From positions 2,294,001 through 2,358,000 of the forward strand of contig NZ_CP117996.1 of NCBI RefSeq assembly GCF_028743715.1: 64,000 nt of DNA, written 5' to 3'. This document shows, piece after piece, positions 51,309 to 62,394 of this stretch; position 1 is the stretch's first letter; each line of letters opens with the position of its first letter. The translations under genes and the position numbers were made by a program. Under the pieces are notes generated by a model that saw only the letters and a list, made by a program, of their open reading frames with translations, was not told the DNA's origin and made no database searches. Source of the stretch: Microbacterium sp. Clip185. Lineage in GTDB: Bacteria > Actinomycetota > Actinomycetes > Actinomycetales > Microbacteriaceae.

Positions 51309-53474
51309 ATGATCTCCGACGTGATGCTCGATGCGGGCCTGGGCGATGCCGACGACGACGACTTCGACGTCACCGACGGCGGTGACACAGAACTGCCCGA
51401 GGCGCGCTATCTCGATCGCGAACTGAGCTGGCTGGCATTCAACCAGCGCGTCCTGGAGCTCGCGGAGGACCCGACGGTCCCGACGCTGGAGCGCGCGAAC
51501 TTCCTCGCCATCTTCGGCAGCAACCTCGACGAGTTCTTCATGGTGCGCGTCGCGGGGCTCAAGCGCCGCATCATCACGGGTCTGGCCGTGCCGACCAACA
51601 TCGGCCGCGCAGCGCAAGACGTCCTCGCCGACATCTCGCGCGACGCCCACGCCCTCCAGCTGCGTCACGCCGAGGCATGGCAGCAGCTCGTGCGCCCCGC
51701 CCTCGCGGAGTCCGGCATCGCGGTGATCGGTTGGGACGACCTCGACGGCGACGACCGCACGCGCCTGTCGGACTACTTCCAGTCGCAGGTGTTCCCGGTG
51801 CTCATGCCTCTCGCGGTGGATCCTGCGCACCCCTTCCCCTACATCTCGGGCCTCTCGCTGAACCTCGCCATCCGCATCCGCAATGCGAAGACCGGCCGCC
51901 AGGAGTTCGCGCGCCTGAAGGTGCCGCCCATGCTGCCCCGGTTCGTCGAGGTCTCGCGCGACGGCGAGCGCGTGCGCTACCTCGCTCTCGAAGACCTCAT
52001 CGCCAACCACCTCTCCGACCTGTTCCCGGGCATGGAGATCCTCGACCACCACGCCTTCCGCCTCACCCGCAACGAAGACATGGTCATCGAAGAGGACGAG
52101 ACCGAGAACCTCATCCAAGCGCTCGAGGCGGAGCTCATGCGCCGACGCTTCGGGCCGCCGATCCGCCTCGAGATCACCGACGACATGGACGAGCTCACCC
52201 TCGATCTGCTGATCAAGGAGCTCGACATCACCGAGCAGGAGGTCTACCGCCTGCCCGGACCGCTGGATCTGCGAGGGCTCTTCGATCTGTCGCGCATCGA
52301 CCGCCCCGATCTGCATTACCCGCCGCACGTCCCCACGACCGCGGTGGCGTTCCAGCCCGGTGACAACAACGAGCGCGCCGACATCTTCGCCGCCATCCGC
52401 AAGGGCGACGTTCTCGTGCACCACCCGTACGAGTCCTTCGCCACCAGCGTGCAGGCCTTCCTCGAGCAGGCGGCGAAAGACCCGCACGTGCTGGCGATCA
52501 AGCAGACGCTGTACCGCACCTCGGGCGACAGCCCCATCGTGCAGGCGCTGATCGACGCCGCCGAGGCCGGCAAGCAGGTGCTGGCGCTCGTCGAGGTCAA
52601 GGCGCGCTTCGACGAGGCGAACAACATCGTTTGGGCCCGCAAGCTCGAGAAGGCCGGCGTGCACGTCGTCTACGGTCTCGTCGGGCTGAAGACGCACTGC
52701 AAACTCGCCCTCGTCATCCGCGAGGAGAACGGCGTGCTGCGCAGCTACTGCCACGTCGGCACCGGCAACTACAACCCGAAGACCAGCCGGATCTACGAGG
52801 ACTTCGGCCTGTTCACCGCGAGTGACGAGGTCGGCCGCGACCTCACCCGCCTGTTCAACGAGTTGAGCGGGTACGCGATCGAGAAGAAGTTCAAGCGTCT
52901 GCTCGTCGCTCCGCTGCACCTGCGCAAGGGTCTCGTCCGCCTCATCGAGCGCGAGCGCAAGCACGCCCTCGACGGCAAGAGCTCGGGCATCCGCATCAAG
53001 GTCAACTCGATGGTCGACGAACAGATCATCGACGCGCTCTATCGCGCCAGTCGCGCCGGGGTGCCCGTGGAGATCTGGGTGCGCGGCATCTGCAGCATCC
53101 GCCCCGGCGTCGAAGGACTGAGCGAGAACATCACGGTGCGCTCCATCCTCGGCCGCTATCTCGAGCACTCGCGGATCTTCGCGTTCGACAACGACGGCGA
53201 CCCGGAGACCTACATCGGCTCGGCCGACATGATGCACCGCAACCTCGATCGTCGCGTCGAGGCGCTCGTGCGCATCACGGCGCCCGCGCAGATCGCCGAG
53301 CTGAGCGAGCTGTTCTCCCTCGCGATGAGCGAGAGAACGAGTTCCTGGTGGCTCGCGGGCGACGGCACCTGGACGCGGCATTCGACCGACGCAGAGGACA
53401 AGGCGCTCGTCGACCTGCAGGACAAGACGATGTTCCAGGTGCAGCGTCGTCGGCGCTCGAGGGCGGTGCGATGA
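51309..53474 (+). CDS. ppk: Polyphosphate kinase 1
   Basis: This 721-residue protein starts at ATG 51309, eight bases after AAGGA. It has a short acidic leader. The N domain starts [20 protein letters not shown]. The catalytic His is in [14 protein letters not shown] (about residue 463), and a second active-site His is in [14 protein letters not shown] (about 642). It reversibly polymerises ATP gamma-phosphate into polyphosphate. It is coupled to the NUDIX gene by ATGA, as ppk1-mutT1 is in mycobacteria. Confidence 0.97.
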
Positions 53475-54409
53475 CGCACACCGCCGTCTATGCCGCGGGC
53501 GGAATCGTCTGGCGCCGGGTCGAGGACAAGCTGAAGATCCTCCTCATCCATCGCACCCGGTACCGCGACGTCACCCTTCCGAAGGGAAAGGTCGACCCGG
53601 GCGAGGCGCTGGTGGAGACGGCCGTGCGCGAGATCTTCGAGGAGACCGGCATCGCCGTCTCGCTCGGGCTCCCGGTCGGCGTCTCCCGCTACACGCTGCC
53701 CAGTCGGCGCGAGAAGATCGTGCACTACTGGTCGGCGGAGGCCACCGACGCCGCGATCCGCGCATCCGCGTTCGTGCCGAACAAGGAGATCGCGGCCATC
53801 GAGTGGGTGAGCCCGAAGAAGGCGCTCACCTACCTCAGCTACCCGGTCGACGTGGAGATCGTGGAGAACTTCCTCCGCTTCGTCGAGGACGGCGTGCTCG
53901 AGACGTTCCCGATCGTCGTGCTGCGCCACGCGAAGGCCACCCCGCGGGATGAGTGGTCGAACTCGGATGCGTCGCGCCCTCTCACCGCCCGCGGACGCAA
54001 GCAGGCCGAGGCGATCGTCGGACCGCTCACCTCGTTCGGCATCCGCCGAATCGTCTCATCGGATGCGGTTCGCTGCACCGAGACCGTGGCACCGCTGGCC
54101 GCCGCCCTCGGACGCTCCGTCAAGACGAGTGAGCTGATCAGCCAGGACGCGTGGGAGGAGGGCCGCTCCGACGCACGCACGGTCGTCGGCAAGCGGGTGC
54201 GCTCACGAAAGCCCGCCGTGGTGTGCAGCCACGGTCCCGTTCTGCCCGACATCCTGCACGAGCTGGCCCTCGCGACGGGCACGCTGCGGGGCTCTTATCT
54301 CGGCAGCGCCTCCGCGCTCGAGGTCGGAGGGTTCTCGGTGGTGCACCTGTCGCGCACGAACCCCGGTTCCGGAATCGCCGCGATCGAGACGCACCTGCCG
54401 AAGGTCTGA
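53471..54409 (+). CDS. mutT1: NUDIX hydrolase fused to histidine phosphatase (MutT1-like)
   Basis: This 312-residue protein has a complete NUDIX box from G39 to I61: E45, R53-E54, E57-E58 and G60 in the canonical spacing. A SixA-like phosphatase domain follows from about residue 150 ([27 protein letters not shown]). In mycobacteria the same fusion, MutT1, hydrolyses 8-oxo-dGTP and diadenosine polyphosphates. Its fixed place after ppk suggests a role in phosphate-anhydride turnover. Confidence 0.93.
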
Positions 54410-54412
54410 CAC

Positions 54413-54919
54413 GTGCCACGCACCGTCCGCGTGGTGTGGACGACACGAGAACACGCCGACCGTCGAGCGGAGGCCGCGCGTCTGGTGCGTGCCGCCACGG
54501 GGTGCACGCTCCGGCACGGGCCGTGCAGCAGGTGCGGCGGCGACCATGGACGCCCCCGCCTCGAGGAGGGCGGATCCGTCTCCCTCGCCTATGCCGGCGA
54601 CCTCGTGGTGGCGGCACTCGCCGACGACGGCGACATCGGTGTCGACGTCGAGGAAGGATCCGCATCCGCATCGGCGCGAATCGAGCGGTTGGCTCCCGGC
54701 TCGACGCTGCGCGACTGGACGAGGTTCGAGGCGGCGACCAAGGCGGTCGGGGCGGATCTGCGTGACGGCGCCCATCTGCCGGCGGTCGTCGAAGGAGAAG
54801 ACTGGCAGACGGACGTCGCCGGTCGCCTCGTGCACGGCTGGGATGTCGACGCCCCCACCGGGTACGTGATCAGCGTGGCGCGAGCCGCGGCAGCGGCGCC
54901 CGATCGATCCACGAGCTGA
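54413..54919 (+). CDS. Short Sfp-type 4'-phosphopantetheinyl transferase
   Basis: This 168-residue protein has a GTG start. C38-S-R-C-G-G-D-H-G-R-P, then SVSLAY, GVDVE (76-80) and W102-x3-E106-x3-K110 are the ordered motifs of Sfp-type transferases. The Lys and Glu spacing in WTRFEAATK is slightly atypical. At 168 residues it is shorter than usual (about 210-230). It would move phosphopantetheine from CoA onto a carrier Ser. The only carrier in this window is Ser550 of the synthetase ending at 56144. It overlaps the M1 peptidase gene tail to tail by 50 bases. Confidence 0.85.
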   Translation: MPRTVRVVWTTREHADRRAEAARLVRAATGCTLRHGPCSRCGGDHGRPRLEEGGSVSLAYAGDLVVAALADDGDIGVDVEEGSASASARIERLAPGSTLRDWTRFEAATKAVGADLRDGAHLPAVVEGEDWQTDVAGRLVHGWDVDAPTGYVISVARAAAAAPDRSTS

Positions 54920-56147
54920 GCAGCGACGCGGACTCGTCGTCCAGCAGGCGACGGAAGTCGTCGGTGACCACCAGAGCATGCCGGTGGGCCGCGGTCCAGG
55001 AGCGCAGCAGCTCGAAGAACGCCTCATCACCCAGGTGCAGCCGCAGGGCATGCAGAGCGAGAGCGCCGCGCTTGTAGACCCGATCGTCGAAGAGCCGGGC
55101 CGCGCCGGGGTCGGCGATCACCAGATCCTGTGGCTCGGCAGTCAACTGCCGCAGGTGAGCGCGGGCGCACCCGTCCGCGTCCGGTCCGCCCGATGCCTCA
55201 GACCACAGCCACTCGGCGTAGCAGGCGAAGCCTTCGTTGAGCCAGATGTCCTGCCATCGGGCGATACCGACGCTGTTTCCGAACCACTGGTGAGCGAGCT
55301 CGTGCGCCACGAGTCGCTCGCTCGCCGCATCCAGATGGTTCGCGCCGAACACCGCCATTCCCTGCGACTCGAGCGGGATCTCAAGATCGTCAGCGGTCAC
55401 CACGACGCGGTACCCGCTCTGCGGGTATGGGCCGAACCGCTCGCCGAACGCCGCGATCATCCGCGGGAGATCGGCGAATGCGGCAGCGGCCGGAGCCGTC
55501 AGGGCGGCGGGCGCCCAGAGCTCCACCGGTACGGGAGCGTCGATCTCGGTGCGCCCGTAACGGCCGACGTGCACCGCCGCCAGATACGTCGCGGTGGGCA
55601 CATCGCAGACGTACTCCACGACCCGACGGCGTCCCTGCGTCTGATCGAGGATGCGGGTGCCCACCGCGACGGCCGTGTACTCCCGATCGGTGGCGATCCT
55701 CATCCGCATCCGGGCACGATTGTCGGGGCGGTCGTTGCAGGGGAACCAGGTCGCAGCCCCCGTCGGCTGGTTCGCCACGAGCGCCCCGTCGGTCAGCTCC
55801 TCCCAGCCGATGGCGCCCCACGGCGAGCGTCTCGGCGCGGGCGATCCCTCGTAACGCACCTCGATCGTGAACGTCTCCCCTGCCGCGACGTCGCGACCGA
55901 ACCCGATCTGCAGGTGCTGCGCGCTCTGGCGCTGCACGGCCGGGCTCACGCCGTCGACGCGGACCCTGGTGGCCCGCATCCCGATGAGGTCCAGGCTCAC
56001 GCCGCGCAGGTCGATCGATGCGGTCGCCTCGATCGTCGCGGTACCGCTCAGACGGTTGGTGCGCACACGGTAATCGAGGTCGAGGCGGTAGGAGGCGACG
56101 TCGTACGAGACATCACCACTGCGTGGAGCGTAGGCGTCGCCGCTCAC
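54870..56147 (-). CDS. M1-family zinc metallopeptidase, candidate polymer hydrolase
   Basis: I choose GTG 56147, which overlaps the synthetase TGA (GTGA). An upstream GTG at 56186 lies inside the synthetase. It has 425 residues. Zinc motif HELAHQWFG lies at about residue 280, with third ligand Glu in NEGFACYAE. The exopeptidase GAMEN motif is not clear, and QGMAVFG is in its place. No signal peptide is evident. In Streptomyces a peptidase that degrades epsilon-poly-lysine is encoded beside the polylysine synthetase. The same layout here suggests hydrolysis of the product. Confidence 0.88.
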   Translation of the reverse strand: MSGDAYAPRSGDVSYDVASYRLDLDYRVRTNRLSGTATIEATASIDLRGVSLDLIGMRATRVRVDGVSPAVQRQSAQHLQIGFGRDVAAGETFTIEVRYEGSPAPRRSPWGAIGWEELTDGALVANQPTGAATWFPCNDRPDNRARMRMRIATDREYTAVAVGTRILDQTQGRRRVVEYVCDVPTATYLAAVHVGRYGRTEIDAPVPVELWAPAALTAPAAAAFADLPRMIAAFGERFGPYPQSGYRVVVTADDLEIPLESQGMAVFGANHLDAASERLVAHELAHQWFGNSVGIARWQDIWLNEGFACYAEWLWSEASGGPDADGCARAHLRQLTAEPQDLVIADPGAARLFDDRVYKRGALALHALRLHLGDEAFFELLRSWTAAHRHALVVTDDFRRLLDDESASLLSSWIDRAPLPRLAPR

Positions 56148-59100
56148 GAGGTGGACTGGTAGGGACGCACCTTCACCGCGCGCCACGGGCCGATGGGGTT
56201 GCCGCTCCAGCGGGTGCCGACGGGCACCGTCTCGCCGCGCATCACGAGGGACGCGGGCCCGACAGTCGCATCGGCGCCGATGACGGCAGCAGGCAGGATC
56301 ACGCTGTGCGGACCCAGCGTCGCGCCGGGGGCGAGCTCTACGGTGTCCATGCTCATGATTCGATCATGGAACAGGTGGGTCTGCACGACGCACCCTCGGT
56401 TGACCGTCGCTCCATCGCCGAGGGTGACCAGATCGGGTTCCGGGAGCCAGTACGAATCGCACCACACTCCCGTGCCGATGCGCGCCCCCATCGCCCGCAA
56501 CCACACCGCCAGGGCGGGTGTGCCGACGGCCCCACGTGCGAACCACATCGCCGCGACCATCTCGGTGAACGTGTCGACGACCTCCGTGCGCCAGACGAAG
56601 CTCGACCACAGCGGCTGTTCACCAGCGCGGATGGGGCCGACGATCGTCCACTTGGCGACGACCGTGACCGCTGCCGCCACGGCGCCCGCCGCCAACAGAA
56701 CGACCCCCGACAGCAGGAGCGCCCCCAGCCAGCCGAGCCAGCTCGTGAGTGCGGCGAGCGCGAACAGCACCGACAGCCCGATCGCGCAGGTCACGACCAC
56801 GGGGACGAACCGGCAGAGCTCCCACAGCGCTCGCGCGAGGCGCAATCCCGGCGTCGGGCGGTAGGTGCGCGACTCATCGGCTTCGGTGACGGCGCGGCGT
56901 AGCCGCACGGCGGGTGAGCCCAGCCACGAGGATCCGGGCTTCGCCTTGCGCGGCGCTGAGGAGAGCACGGCCACCAGCCCGTCGCGCGGCACGCGGTGGC
57001 CCGGCGCCGCCATCCCGGAGTTGCCGAGGAAGGCGCGCTTGCCGATGCGGACCGCGCCCAACCGCATCCACCCGGCGTGCAGTTCGTAGGAGGCCACCAT
57101 CGTGTCGTCGGCCAGGAACGCGCCGTCCTCGATCCGGGTCAGCGACGGCAGCAGAAGCACCGTCGACGCCTCGACGTCGCGCCCGACGCGGGCGCCCAGC
57201 ATCCGGAGCCAGACGGGTGTGAACAGGCTCGAGTACAGCGGGAAGAGGATGGTGCGCGATGCGTCCAGAAGGCGCTCGATCGTCCACGCCTGCCACGCCA
57301 CCCGGCTGCGCACGGGGTACGTGCCCTCGACGAGTCCGATCGAGAGCAGGCGCACCGCGACCACGACGACGCCGGCGAGCACGAGACCGCACACGAGCAC
57401 AGCGGGCACGAGCCAGACCATTGCCGCACCGAAGGCGGCGGACAACGACGAGGCGCCCCGCACACCGACGGCCAGGACGACCGCACCGCAGAGGATGGCG
57501 AACACCGGGAGCACGGCGAGTGCCAGTGCCGATGCGCCGTACGCCCACATCCAGCGGTGCGGAGTCGGCGGCCGCTCTGCGGGCCAGTCTTCCGCGACCG
57601 CACCGACACGGACCGCGGGAGAGCCCGCCCAGGTCTGCGCCGCACGAACCCGCCCGAACACGGCAGAGCCGGGAGCGATCTCGGCGCGCTGGCCGATGCG
57701 CGTGCCGGGGGCGAGGGTACTGCGTGCGCCGACGGTGGCCGCGGCGCCGATGCGGATGGCACCGACGCGCAACAGGTCGCCGTCGATCCAGTAGCCGCGC
57801 AGGTCCACCTCCGGCTCGATCGACGCTCCGTCGCCCACCTCCAGCATCCCGGTGACGGGAGGCAGCGTGTGCAGATCGACGTCACGACCGATCCGGGCCC
57901 CCAGCGCCCGCGCGTAGTAGGTGATCCAGGGCGCACCGGCGAGGCCGACCGCATCCACTTGCTCCGCGATCTGCTCCGCCAGCCACACGCGCAGATGCAC
58001 CGCTCCCCCTCGCGGATAGTCTCCCGGGCGCAGACCCGCGAGCAGGATGCGGGCGGATGCGGCGGCGAGCGCCATTCGCCCGAACGGCGTCGCGAACAGA
58101 AGCCACCCGACGACGAGCAGCCAGGCCGGCGCCGTCGGAAGGGCACCGAAGCCGGGGAAGAGGCTGAGGACCGTGCCTGCGGTGAGGATGTAGAGCAGCC
58201 ACCGCACGCCGGAGAGGATGAACAACGGCGCTCCCGCCAGCGTCTGCAGCCACTGCGTCGCCCGCGGCGTCGGCTCGGGACGCCGGTAGTCGCCGCTCAC
58301 CGCGTCGGGGAGGAAGGGTCCGAGGGCCTTGGCCATGGTCGACAGGCGCGGCATGTCGTAGATATCGGCAACGGCGAACTCCGGCACGCGCGCACGGATG
58401 CGGGAGACCAGCTGGGCCGCGGCCAGCGAACCACCCCCGAGGTCGAAGAAGTCCGCCTTCGGCCCCGGCACCGGAACACCCAGCACTGCCTGCCATTGCT
58501 CGGCCAGCCAAGCCTCCGCGGGATCGAGCCCCGACGGCGGCGTCTCGACGCCCGGCAGGGGCCACGGCAACCCGGCCCGGTCGACCTTGCCCGATGTGCG
58601 CACGGGTAACTCGTCGACGACGGCGAGAAGCGGCACGATCGCCGCCGGAAGGCTCTCCGCCAGCCGCGCCCTCGCCTCGGCGCGGTCGAGCTCGACCCCC
58701 GGCTCCAGAACGAGGTAGCCCACCAGGACCGAGACAGCCGCCTCGCTCTGCCGCACCGCGGCGGCCGCGGCATGCACGCCGGGAAGCTCCTGCAGCGCGG
58801 ACTCGACCTCGCCCAGCTCGATCCGCCGTCCGCCGACCTTCACCTGGTCGTCGGCACGCCCCTGGAAGACGAGGCCCGCACTCTCGAAGCGGACCAGGTC
58901 ACCGGAGCGGTACGCACGCTCCCACCCCAGCGAGGGCATCGGCGCGTACTTCTCCGCATCCTTCAGCGGATCGAGATAGCGGGCCAGGCCGACACCACCG
59001 ATGATGAGCTCCCCGACCTCGCCCTCGGCCACGCGGGCGCCGTCAGCATCCACCACCGCGAGCACCCACCCGTCCAGAGGCAGGCCGATCCGCACGGGGG

Positions 59101-60076
59101 CCGATCCGTCCATGAGAGAGCCGCACGCCACCACGGTCGCCTCGGTCGGGCCATACGTGTTCCACACCTCGCGGCCCTCGGACTGCAGGCGCGCGGCGAG
59201 TTCGGGCGGGCACGCCTCGCCGCCGAAGATGAGCAGCCGGACGTTCTCGATCGCCTCCGCGGGCCACATCCCCGCGAGTGTCGGCACCGTCGAAACCACG
59301 GTGATGCCCTGACGGATCAACCACGGCGCGAGATCCTCCCCCGAGCGCACGAGCGAGCGAGGCGCCGGCACGAGGCAGGCGCCGTGCCGCCACGCCAGCC
59401 ACATCTCTTCACAGGATGCGTCGAAGGCGACCGAGAGGCCCGCCAGCACCCGATCGCCCGGTCCGAGGGGTGCATCCTGGAGGAACATGCGCGCCTCGGC
59501 ATCCACGAACGCCGCGGCTGACCGGTGGCTCACCGCCACCCCCTTCGGCACACCTGTCGAGCCGGAGGTGAAGATGATCCAGGCATCATCCTCGACCGTC
59601 ACCTCAGGAACCGCGTCGAAGGCGCGCGTCGACGGATGCGGGGCATCCCCGCCGTGGAGTTCGGTCGCCGGCGCCGACCCGCCCGCAGGCACGTACACAC
59701 CTCCGGCACCGATCACACCGGCGACCCGCGCCTCCCCGAAAACGAGCCGCGCTCGTTCGTCGGGATCGTCCGCGTCGACCGGCACGTACGCTGCTCCCGC
59801 GACCAGCACCCCGAGGATCGCGACGTACAGATCCTTCGATCCCGAGGGCATGCGTACACCCACCCGGTCGCCGCGGCGGACGCCCGCGGCGAGCAGGCGG
59901 GCGGCGGTGCGGCTGACGTGCGCAAGAAGCTCCGCGTAGCTGAGGGCTCCCGAGCCGTCGTCGATCGCCGATGCCTCGGGGTGGCGCCGTGCACTTTCGC
60001 GCAGGATGTCCACCAGGGTGCGGGGCGACGGCGCCGCGGCGGACCGGTCCAGGACGACCTGAGATTCGGAGAGCAT
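56144..60076 (-). CDS. Pls-type single-module NRPS with membrane acyltransferase-like C-terminus
   Basis: This 1310-residue protein starts at ATG 60076. The adenylation domain (about 20-505) has IIFTSGSTGVPKGVAVSH (168-185), YGPTEATV, YRSGDL and catalytic K497 in TSGKVDR. Substrate-pocket D219 lies in FDASCEEMW. The carrier domain has Ser550 in FDLGGGSLAAA. From about 615 on, membrane helices alternate with left-handed beta-helix repeats (for example TRIGQRAEIAPGSAVFGRV), with no condensation or thioesterase domain. This is the epsilon-poly-lysine synthetase (Pls) plan, in which the C-terminal domains form isopeptide bonds. A basic amino acid substrate is inferred from E223/E224 near D219. 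Confidence 0.9.
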   Translation of the reverse strand: MLSESQVVLDRSAAAPSPRTLVDILRESARRHPEASAIDDGSGALSYAELLAHVSRTAARLLAAGVRRGDRVGVRMPSGSKDLYVAILGVLVAGAAYVPVDADDPDERARLVFGEARVAGVIGAGGVYVPAGGSAPATELHGGDAPHPSTRAFDAVPEVTVEDDAWIIFTSGSTGVPKGVAVSHRSAAAFVDAEARMFLQDAPLGPGDRVLAGLSVAFDASCEEMWLAWRHGACLVPAPRSLVRSGEDLAPWLIRQGITVVSTVPTLAGMWPAEAIENVRLLIFGGEACPPELAARLQSEGREVWNTYGPTEATVVACGSLMDGSAPVRIGLPLDGWVLAVVDADGARVAEGEVGELIIGGVGLARYLDPLKDAEKYAPMPSLGWERAYRSGDLVRFESAGLVFQGRADDQVKVGGRRIELGEVESALQELPGVHAAAAAVRQSEAAVSVLVGYLVLEPGVELDRAEARARLAESLPAAIVPLLAVVDELPVRTSGKVDRAGLPWPLPGVETPPSGLDPAEAWLAEQWQAVLGVPVPGPKADFFDLGGGSLAAAQLVSRIRARVPEFAVADIYDMPRLSTMAKALGPFLPDAVSGDYRRPEPTPRATQWLQTLAGAPLFILSGVRWLLYILTAGTVLSLFPGFGALPTAPAWLLVVGWLLFATPFGRMALAAASARILLAGLRPGDYPRGGAVHLRVWLAEQIAEQVDAVGLAGAPWITYYARALGARIGRDVDLHTLPPVTGMLEVGDGASIEPEVDLRGYWIDGDLLRVGAIRIGAAATVGARSTLAPGTRIGQRAEIAPGSAVFGRVRAAQTWAGSPAVRVGAVAEDWPAERPPTPHRWMWAYGASALALAVLPVFAILCGAVVLAVGVRGASSLSAAFGAAMVWLVPAVLVCGLVLAGVVVVAVRLLSIGLVEGTYPVRSRVAWQAWTIERLLDASRTILFPLYSSLFTPVWLRMLGARVGRDVEASTVLLLPSLTRIEDGAFLADDTMVASYELHAGWMRLGAVRIGKRAFLGNSGMAAPGHRVPRDGLVAVLSSAPRKAKPGSSWLGSPAVRLRRAVTEADESRTYRPTPGLRLARALWELCRFVPVVVTCAIGLSVLFALAALTSWLGWLGALLLSGVVLLAAGAVAAAVTVVAKWTIVGPIRAGEQPLWSSFVWRTEVVDTFTEMVAAMWFARGAVGTPALAVWLRAMGARIGTGVWCDSYWLPEPDLVTLGDGATVNRGCVVQTHLFHDRIMSMDTVELAPGATLGPHSVILPAAVIGADATVGPASLVMRGETVPVGTRWSGNPIGPWRAVKVRPYQSTS

Positions 60077-60093
60077 GCGCCGAAAGTAGGGAC

Positions 60094-60104
60094 CGCGGGT
60101 GAAC
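60094..60104 (-). promoter_or_regulatory. PHO half-site before the synthetase gene
   Basis: On the reverse strand GTTCACCCGCG (60104-60094) matches one PHO repeat unit 17-27 bases before the ATG. The adjacent upstream unit is poor. It faces away from the full site of pstS. Confidence 0.35.
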
Positions 60105-60149
60105 GGATGGTGTCGCCGCGCGCTCGTGAGAGCGCATCCGCCTCGCTCC

Positions 60150-60171
60150 GTTCACCTTCCGTTCACCCGCA
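60150..60171 (+). promoter_or_regulatory. PHO box of the pst operon
   Basis: The two exact direct repeats GTTCACCTTCC (60150-60160) and GTTCACCCGCA (60161-60171) have an 11-base period. They match the Streptomyces/mycobacterial consensus. TAGCGT at 60199-60204 is a possible -10. Confidence 0.85.
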
Positions 60172-60257
60172 CAGCGGACGCTGGTAAACGCACCTGCTTA
60201 GCGTCTTCGGCGAGCCCTGCACCGGGCCCGTAACCCTGACACGTGAAGGATTTCACA

Positions 60258-61370
60258 GTGAAGATCACCCGTATCGCCCAGGTGGGCGCCATCGCCGCGA
60301 TCGCGGCACTCGCGCTCGCCGGCTGTGCCGCGAACGAGGCACCCGCCGGCACCGAGAGCTCCGCCGGCGCCGAGTCGACGCTGCCCACCGGTCTCTCCGG
60401 CACCCTGAACGGTTCCGGCGCCACGTCGCAGCAGGTCGCCATCCAGTCCTGGACGCAGCTGCTGCAGACGGCCAACGCCGACCTCACCGTCAACTACGAC
60501 CCGCAGGGTTCGGGCACCGGCCGCGAGTCGTTCCAGTCGGGCGCCGTGCAGTTCGCCGGCTCCGACCGCGCGTTCAAGAAGGACGAGATCACCGCCGGGC
60601 CGTTCAGCGCCTGCGCCCCCGACTCGGGCCTCGTCGAGATCCCGGCCTACGTGTCGCCGATCGCGATCATCTTCAACGTCGAGGGCGTCAAGGAGCTCAA
60701 CCTCGACCCCGCCACGATCGCGGGCATCTTCGCCGGCACGATCACCAACTGGAACGACCCGGCCATCGCCGCGACCAACAAGGACGCGAAGCTGCCCGAC
60801 CTGGCGATCACGCCCGTGCATCGCTCGGACAAGTCGGGCACGACCGGCAACTTCACCGACTACCTCTCCAAGACCGACGCCGCAGGCTGGACGTACGGCT
60901 CCGTCGAGGAGTGGCCGATCGCCGGCGGTGAGGCTGCCCAGGGCACCTCGGGCGTCGTCAACGCGGTCAAGGGCGGCAACGGCACGATCGGCTACGCCGA
61001 CTCGTCGCAGGCCGCGGACATCTCGTCGGTCGCCGTCAAGGTGGGCGACGACTTCGTCAAGCACTCCGCTGAGGGTGCCGCGACGGCCGTCGACGCATCT
61101 CCGTTCGAGGACGGCCGCGGCGACAACGACCTCGCCATCACGATCGACCGCACCACGACCGAGGCCGGCGCCTACCCCGTCGTTCTCATCAGCTACCTGA
61201 TCGGTTGCGAGAAGTACACCGACGCCGCTGCGGCGAAGCTCGTCCAGGGCTTCTTCACGACGGCGATCAGCGAAGAGGGCCAGGAGGCCGCTGCCAAGAA
61301 CGCCGGCAGCGCCCCCATCTCCGACACGCTGCGCGAGCGCGCTCAGAAGGCCATCGACGCCATCTCCTGA
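60258..61370 (+). CDS. pstS: Phosphate-binding lipoprotein PstS
   Basis: I choose GTG 60258, seven bases after AAGGA, over GTG 60243. It has 370 residues. The lipobox ALAGC gives acyl-Cys23. Phosphate-binding segments GSGATSQQ, DPQGSGTGRESF, RSDKSGTTGNF and the substrate-side GSD are present. It delivers phosphate to PstCA at the outer face of the membrane. A hairpin follows before pstC, so PstS is probably made in excess over the permease. Confidence 0.96.
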   Translation: MKITRIAQVGAIAAIAALALAGCAANEAPAGTESSAGAESTLPTGLSGTLNGSGATSQQVAIQSWTQLLQTANADLTVNYDPQGSGTGRESFQSGAVQFAGSDRAFKKDEITAGPFSACAPDSGLVEIPAYVSPIAIIFNVEGVKELNLDPATIAGIFAGTITNWNDPAIAATNKDAKLPDLAITPVHRSDKSGTTGNFTDYLSKTDAAGWTYGSVEEWPIAGGEAAQGTSGVVNAVKGGNGTIGYADSSQAADISSVAVKVGDDFVKHSAEGAATAVDASPFEDGRGDNDLAITIDRTTTEAGAYPVVLISYLIGCEKYTDAAAAKLVQGFFTTAISEEGQEAAAKNAGSAPISDTLRERAQKAIDAIS

Positions 61371-61446: not shown

Positions 61447-62394
61447 ATGACAGCCACCGCCGCGGGACCCACCCGCCCCGCTGCCAAACGGCGACCCGGA
61501 GACATCTGGTTCTCCGGCTCCGCTCTGGCCGCCGGCAGCATGATCCTGGTGACGCTCGCCGCCGTGGCGATCTTCCTCATCATCCAGTCGATCCCCGCTC
61601 TCGGGGCGGACGCCTCCCAGGCTTCCCTCCTCTCCTCCAACTTCTGGGCCTACGTCGCGCCGCTGCTGTTCGGCACGGTCTGGGCCGCCTTCCTCGCCCT
61701 GCTGATGGCCGTTCCGCTGTCGCTGGGCGTCGCCCTCTTCATCACCCACTACGCACCGCGCCGCCTCGCGCAAGGTCTCGGCTACATCGTCGACCTGCTG
61801 GCCGCGGTCCCCTCCGTCGTGTTCGGCCTCTGGGGCATCCTCGTGCTCGCGCCCGCGGTGCAGCCGGTCTACTCATGGCTCAGCGACAACGCCGGGTGGT
61901 TCCCGCTCTTCTCCGGCGACGTGTCGGCTACGGGCCGCACGATCTTCACGGCCGGCATCGTGCTCGCCGTCATGGTGGTCCCGATCATCACGGCGATCTG
62001 CCGCGAGGTGTTCCTGCAGACGCCCAAGCTGCACGAGGAAGCCGCTCTCGCCCTCGGCGCGACCCGCTGGGAGATGATCCGGATGGCCGTGCTGCCCTTC
62101 GGTCGCTCCGGCATCGTGTCGGGCGCCATGCTCGGCCTCGGCCGCGCTCTCGGCGAGACCATGGCCGTCGCCATGGTGCTCTCGACCACGGGCGCCGTCA
62201 CCTGGCAGCTGTTCACCTCTCAGAACCCCTCGACGATCGCCGCGAACATCGCGCTGACCTTCCCCGAGGCCTACGGCACGAACATCAACGTGCTGATCGC
62301 GACCGGCCTCATCCTCTTCATCGTGACCTTCGTGGTCAACGCCATCGCGCGCTGGATCGTCAGCCGCCGCAAGGAATTCTCGGGGGCGAACTGA
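61447..62394 (+). CDS. pstC: Phosphate ABC transporter permease PstC
   Basis: This 315-residue protein has six transmembrane helices. The cytoplasmic EAA loop reads EEAALALGATRWEMIRMAVLPFGRSGI. It forms the membrane channel with PstA. The ATG lies behind a GAGAAAG site. Confidence 0.95.
   Translation: MTATAAGPTRPAAKRRPGDIWFSGSALAAGSMILVTLAAVAIFLIIQSIPALGADASQASLLSSNFWAYVAPLLFGTVWAAFLALLMAVPLSLGVALFITHYAPRRLAQGLGYIVDLLAAVPSVVFGLWGILVLAPAVQPVYSWLSDNAGWFPLFSGDVSATGRTIFTAGIVLAVMVVPIITAICREVFLQTPKLHEEAALALGATRWEMIRMAVLPFGRSGIVSGAMLGLGRALGETMAVAMVLSTTGAVTWQLFTSQNPSTIAANIALTFPEAYGTNINVLIATGLILFIVTFVVNAIARWIVSRRKEFSGAN

Follow-up and report, generated by a model that had tools for sequence, protein, structure and literature searches.

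A stretch of 64,000 nucleotides from Microbacterium sp. Clip185 (hereafter the window) carries three adjacent genes that we read, with a probability of roughly three in four, as a self-contained cassette for epsilon-poly-L-lysine (epsilon-PL), which is a natural preservative. These are a pls-like synthetase gene (minus strand, 56144..60076, 1310 aa), an M1 metallopeptidase gene of the PldII type (minus strand, 54870..56147) and a gene for a short Sfp-type phosphopantetheinyl transferase (PPTase; plus strand, 54413..54919, 168 aa). An earlier note on this DNA had proposed the three open reading frames as a poly-amino-acid system, and all are present, with the peptidase following the synthetase through a GTGA overlap. 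Its overall interpretation holds for a Pls-type synthetase, a PldII-type peptidase and a probably dedicated PPTase, and is not supported as to the novelty of the system in Microbacterium or a product other than polylysine.

By analogy with characterised relatives, the linked PPTase would attach phosphopantetheine to Ser550 of the carrier (T) domain, after which the adenylation (A) domain would activate L-lysine and load it onto the T domain, and the membrane-bound C-terminal tandem domains would polymerise lysine via its epsilon-amino group. For self-protection, the M1 peptidase, whose gene is translationally coupled to pls, would then trim or degrade the polymer. With the cassette placed between a mutT1-like gene and pstS, pls and pstS share a 166-bp promoter region that contains a PHO box, making phosphate control possible.

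Synthetase and coupled peptidase

The synthetase contains one A domain and one T domain, with Ser550 in a GGGSL motif; neither a condensation nor a thioesterase domain appears among its Pfam matches. Its C-terminal region belongs to the Pls/PosA family (NCBI model TIGR02353, 719.9 bits against a cut-off of 423.1), whose domain plan is matched, as the earlier note had described. A plain hydropathy scan places three hydrophobic clusters in the protein (613-663, 843-920 and 1083-1147), without a clear count of the six transmembrane segments that flank three tandem domains in the Pls/PosA plan. Hexapeptide acyltransferase-like repeats in the C-terminus would also suit an A-T-acyltransferase that decorates a surface acceptor with single lysines instead of building a polymer. 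We consider this highly improbable, and rejected a non-polymerising acyltransferase, because the equivalog-domain match lies far over its cut-off; the architecture is moreover that of proven polymerases, and a peptidase is coupled to the gene.

Among solved structures, the top match is the A domain of the Streptomyces albulus epsilon-PL synthase (7wew, 612.6 bits; next match 401.5), with 61.5% identity across 507 aa. The substrate pocket, compared at nine positions with the tenth not read, is DAESIGTVV in both enzymes, and the same residues occur in 137 of 140 aligned rows (L148 and L149 deviate, and L150 is gapped). According to the available text of PMC10522769, position 2 is Ala in Lys-activating members, Met in the ornithine enzyme and Phe in the PDAP enzyme. 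Since the nine residues are those of S. albulus Pls, epsilon-PL is the most likely product predicted from the sequence, and a non-lysine product was rejected as first choice. The earlier note had suggested that the product could be another polycation, and the same machinery could make a cationic homopolymer from ornithine, diaminobutyrate, beta-lysine or a mixture; products of this kind are known in the family (PMC10522769), and pocket codes only predict. Given the shared pocket with its Ala at position 2, and an M1 neighbour, which PMC8117764 reports beside Pls and beside none of the other three synthetases, we regard such a product as distinctly unlikely.

The M1 gene can start inside the GTGA at the synthetase stop codon, the longest reading frame running from 56186, and its product keeps the zinc-peptidase motif HExxH-18-E and the domains PF01433 and PF17900. 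Loci were compared from 60 of the 132 other pls-bearing genomes of the genus, from 40 of the 58 others in a family survey and, outside the family, from 39 of 53 genomes of a class survey, which gave 40 loci and, once L136 and L151 had been dropped for want of a full synthetase, 38. A same-strand M1 gene stands beside pls in all 61 genus loci (the 60 and the window), in 40/40 family loci and in 35/38 class loci; in five Streptomyces-like loci it is 45.6-48.1% identical to the window protein. A named S. albulus locus with full-length PldII was not found among the matches listed, which comprise 80 other loci, mostly Streptomyces. PldII itself is described in the accessible text of PMC9223678 as translationally coupled to pls and required for self-protection. 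By analogy with characterised relatives, the window M1, a peptidase of the PldII type, would degrade epsilon-PL. Hydropathy reveals no evident membrane segment in it, which counts against the cassette reading; PMC9223678 reports the S. albulus PldII to lie outside the membrane.

TIGR02353 also matches shorter frames, in L136 and L151 and in further frames of 816-1106 aa; these could represent C-terminal regions of Pls that lack an A domain. A match over the cut-off is also present in the control genome, that of Corynebacterium glutamicum, though this species was a non-producing host in PMC8117764.

A phosphopantetheinyl transferase linked to pls

The 168-aa PPTase has no match in Pfam or NCBIfam, and thus reaches no curated family cut-off, so that its family membership rests on profile and fold. 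The two-half Sfp fold is found, and residues D78, E80, E106 and K110 of the GVDxE and WxRxExxxK motifs are present; their counterparts in Sfp serve as metal ligands and as the catalytic Glu and Lys. The frame begins 3 nt past the stop codon of the mutT1-like gene, with which it is in frame, and a longer N-terminus is therefore impossible.

In a survey of 247 genomes of the genus, 133 have TIGR02353 over its cut-off, five of them through partial matches at contig ends or in broken frames (G019, G045, G102, G174 and G181). With its centre on Microbacterium, the PPTase profile may fail to detect others. The linkage count is based on the 150 PPTase matches listed, with weaker ones missed; among these, a PPTase lies no more than 4.5 kb from pls in 126 of the 133 pls genomes, and all 126 are downstream of pls on the opposite strand, at a median of 1378 bp from the domain match. 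A chance neighbourhood of the two genes was rejected on this count. The seven exceptions have no listed PPTase match (G145, G057, G142), a match on another contig (G212, G062, G169) or a distant one (G120), and in G145 a PPTase did turn up in the fetched locus. At E<=1e-12, a PPTase occurs in 130/133 genomes with pls versus 8/114 without; at E<=0.001 the figures are 132/133 versus 42/114, so only strong matches discriminate. The co-occurrence has a Fisher p of 1e-55, a statistic that ignores relatedness. The earlier note had named unlinked homologues in related genomes as grounds for rejecting its proposal, and these counts speak in favour of the link.

Elsewhere in the family a PPTase is found in 36/40 loci, of which 33 have it downstream on the opposite strand; in the other three (L108, L110 and L113) it precedes pls on the same strand and either overlaps or directly adjoins it, the link surviving rearrangement. 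In the wider class it is found in 6/38 loci. Pls and PPTase distances are correlated across 96 loci (r 0.77, reached in 0/1000 permutations), as expected for a co-inherited cassette, though host relatedness alone could also produce this. In G207 (L154), one of the eight genomes that have a strong PPTase match and no pls above the cut-off, short pls and M1 fragments lie beside an apparently complete PPTase; this is a decayed cassette.

Within the window genome, the PP-binding model finds only two carriers, a 96-aa acyl carrier protein (ACP) and the Pls carrier, and the ACPS model matches a single 132-aa AcpS-like frame. The simplest reading of these predictions is that the PPTase is dedicated to Pls in this genome. 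A condensation-domain match (PF00668, 55.1 bits) lies outside the window in a 453-aa frame (G000:C1:320685-321425), where the PP-binding model finds no carrier.

Several observations weigh against this part of the cassette reading. The PPTase falls some 40 residues short of the length of its relatives, and Val, Ala or Asp takes the place of E80 in 12 of 103 loci. The fetched pls loci of G057, G142 and G120 contain no PPTase, nor do 11/11 Streptomyces-like pls loci, and the linkage is therefore not essential to Pls. Carrier matches number exactly two in 18 of 27 sampled pls-bearing genomes and more in the other 9, so exclusivity is not general, and AcpS-type enzymes might load Pls. The small frame could be a true PPTase for another carrier, or a passenger, with Pls loaded by AcpS or some other enzyme; the genus loci without a PPTase (L155-L157) and the extra carriers would fit this. 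We hold it to be unlikely in view of the fixed position and orientation of the gene, its co-occurrence with pls and the window genome's lack of any further non-ACP carrier by the model used; the distance correlation points the same way, subject to its caveat. A PPTase dedicated to Pls remains our preferred reading.

The phosphate locus and its PHO box

The earlier note described the three genes correctly and missed their setting: the ppk and pst neighbours, a PHO box and, in about half of the relatives, a lysine-rich gene. On the plus strand, ppk1 (polyphosphate kinase, 51324..53474, start coordinate approximate) and a MutT1-like Nudix/histidine-phosphatase gene (53471..54409; NF052459, 200.5 bits, under its cut-off of 475) precede the PPTase gene. 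Beyond pls, and divergent from it, pstS encodes a phosphate-binding protein (60243..61370, plus strand) and is followed by pstC (61447-62394).

Of 61 genus loci, 38, including the window, have pls flanked by the mutT1-like gene (with ppk) on one side and pstS-pstC on the other; the remaining 23 carry it at other sites. The ppk count itself, 34/61 genus loci, is too low owing to a mis-framed query, and the corrected search covers L074-L173 only. In a quick tree, used within the genus only because it warns of long branches outside, and with L150 left out, the 38 pst-linked loci fall within one clade of 40 rows with support 100, which suggests that the cassette was inserted once at the phosphate locus, with a few later changes. 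In all 16 pst loci examined from genomes with pls absent (10) or elsewhere (6), L158-L173, one finds ppk, mutT1, pstS and pstC and no pls.

The start codons of pls and pstS are 166 bp apart, and this gap contains GTTCACCTTCCGTTCACC at 60150-60167 (plus strand), a PHO box of the form GTTCACC-N4-GTTCACC. GTTCACC is the S. coelicolor motif, and the classical PHO box consists of two 7-nt repeats spaced by 4 nt (PMC4415409, available text). The pattern GTTCAYYNNNNGTTCAYY has a single occurrence in the 3.3-Mb genome and 0 in the control. With two mismatches allowed, window shuffles gave a mean of 0.44 boxes and at least one box in 34/100, and the actual match is exact. A sigma-70 scan over 59900-60400 found nothing.

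Whether the box serves pls is a separate matter. It faces pstS and goes where pstS goes, and so need not act on pls, which is faced by one weak, lone half-site only (GTTCAC, minus strand, 60099..60104, 28 nt ahead of the pls start). It is missing from 3/38 pst-linked loci, and none of the 23 genus loci away from pst has one within 600 bp of pls, which weakens the case for phosphate control of pls in general. We give somewhat better than even odds to a phosphate-independent pls promoter, with the box for pstS alone and the neighbourhood an accident of insertion. On the other side stand the short intergenic distance, retention of the box in 35/38 loci and, circumstantially, an S. albulus high producer with raised RegX3-SenX3, PstS and ppk1 (PMC10157215, in the text available). 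In the accessible part of PMC9195005, PhoP appears only among the references. From the sequence, phosphate control of pls is possible in the window clade. A fuller scenario seems to us doubtful: after a single insertion, pls in one clade would use the pst PHO box, a private mini-PPTase ending the ppk operon would arm the synthetase, and phosphate-starved cells would make a polycation that can bind polyphosphate or anionic neighbours.

Directly preceding pls, and on its strand, 32/61 genus loci (16 at pst and 16 elsewhere; for example L013:2459-3160, plus strand) and 8/40 family loci have a gene for a lysine/alanine-rich, H1-like protein. In two of five proteins tested, a Rho_N-like C-terminus matches just under the Pfam cut-off. 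The gene is absent from the window lineage, and the window genome has only a 111-aa frame matching the C-terminal part. In G202 (L159), which is pls-less, the gene sits between mutT1 and pstS and looks like the remnant of a cassette whose other parts have gone. Speculatively, the protein may belong to the cassette as its fourth member, binding nucleic acid, for instance, or sensing lysine supply via its own translation.

Relation to known systems

The earlier note knew of no described system from Microbacterium. The available text of PMC8117764 (2021) already reports Pls homologues there, among coryneform bacteria, with lysine predicted and a pls-peptidase operon described, and that of PMC12067966 (2025) reports epsilon-PL clusters in two Microbacterium species. 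The synthetase and peptidase pair is therefore already known; the linked PPTase and the position at the phosphate locus look new. Searches of an open-access library turned up no report that ties a PPTase to pls or to polylysine, and the accessible parts of PMC8949500 and PMC4361855 contain none. Nor did the searches made show a product or enzyme activity of the system measured in any Microbacterium, a point against the cassette reading.

A dedicated PPTase would explain how Pls is kept active in organisms without another non-ACP carrier. In the text available from PMC8117764, C. variabile Pls gave epsilon-PL in S. coelicolor and no polymer in C. glutamicum despite expression, for which its authors suggest regulation; a missing PPTase is another possible reason. 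The linked PPTase could also aid food-grade epsilon-PL production, and the PHO box suggests low phosphate as a condition for waking silent pls clusters.

Among known PPTases, Sfp, PptT and PptAb resemble the window enzyme in fold and active-site residues; the latter differs in its 168 aa, its shortened N-terminus and middle, its invisibility to Pfam and NCBIfam and its link to pls. The Microbacterium clusters of PMC8117764 and PMC12067966 probably correspond to the window genes, carried by sister species, and the accessible portions of these papers make no mention of a PPTase, pst neighbours or a PHO box. Acinetobacter baumannii PosA and the PDAP and PDAB synthetases share family and plan with the window enzyme and differ in pocket residues and substrates. 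The closest known systems also include S. albulus Pls-PldII and, grouped with it, C. variabile Pls, the pocket comparison applying to S. albulus only. S. albulus shares the domain plan, the pocket residues and the coupled downstream peptidase, whereas no PPTase is linked to pls in the 11 Streptomyces-like loci, and pls there does not lie at a ppk/pst locus.
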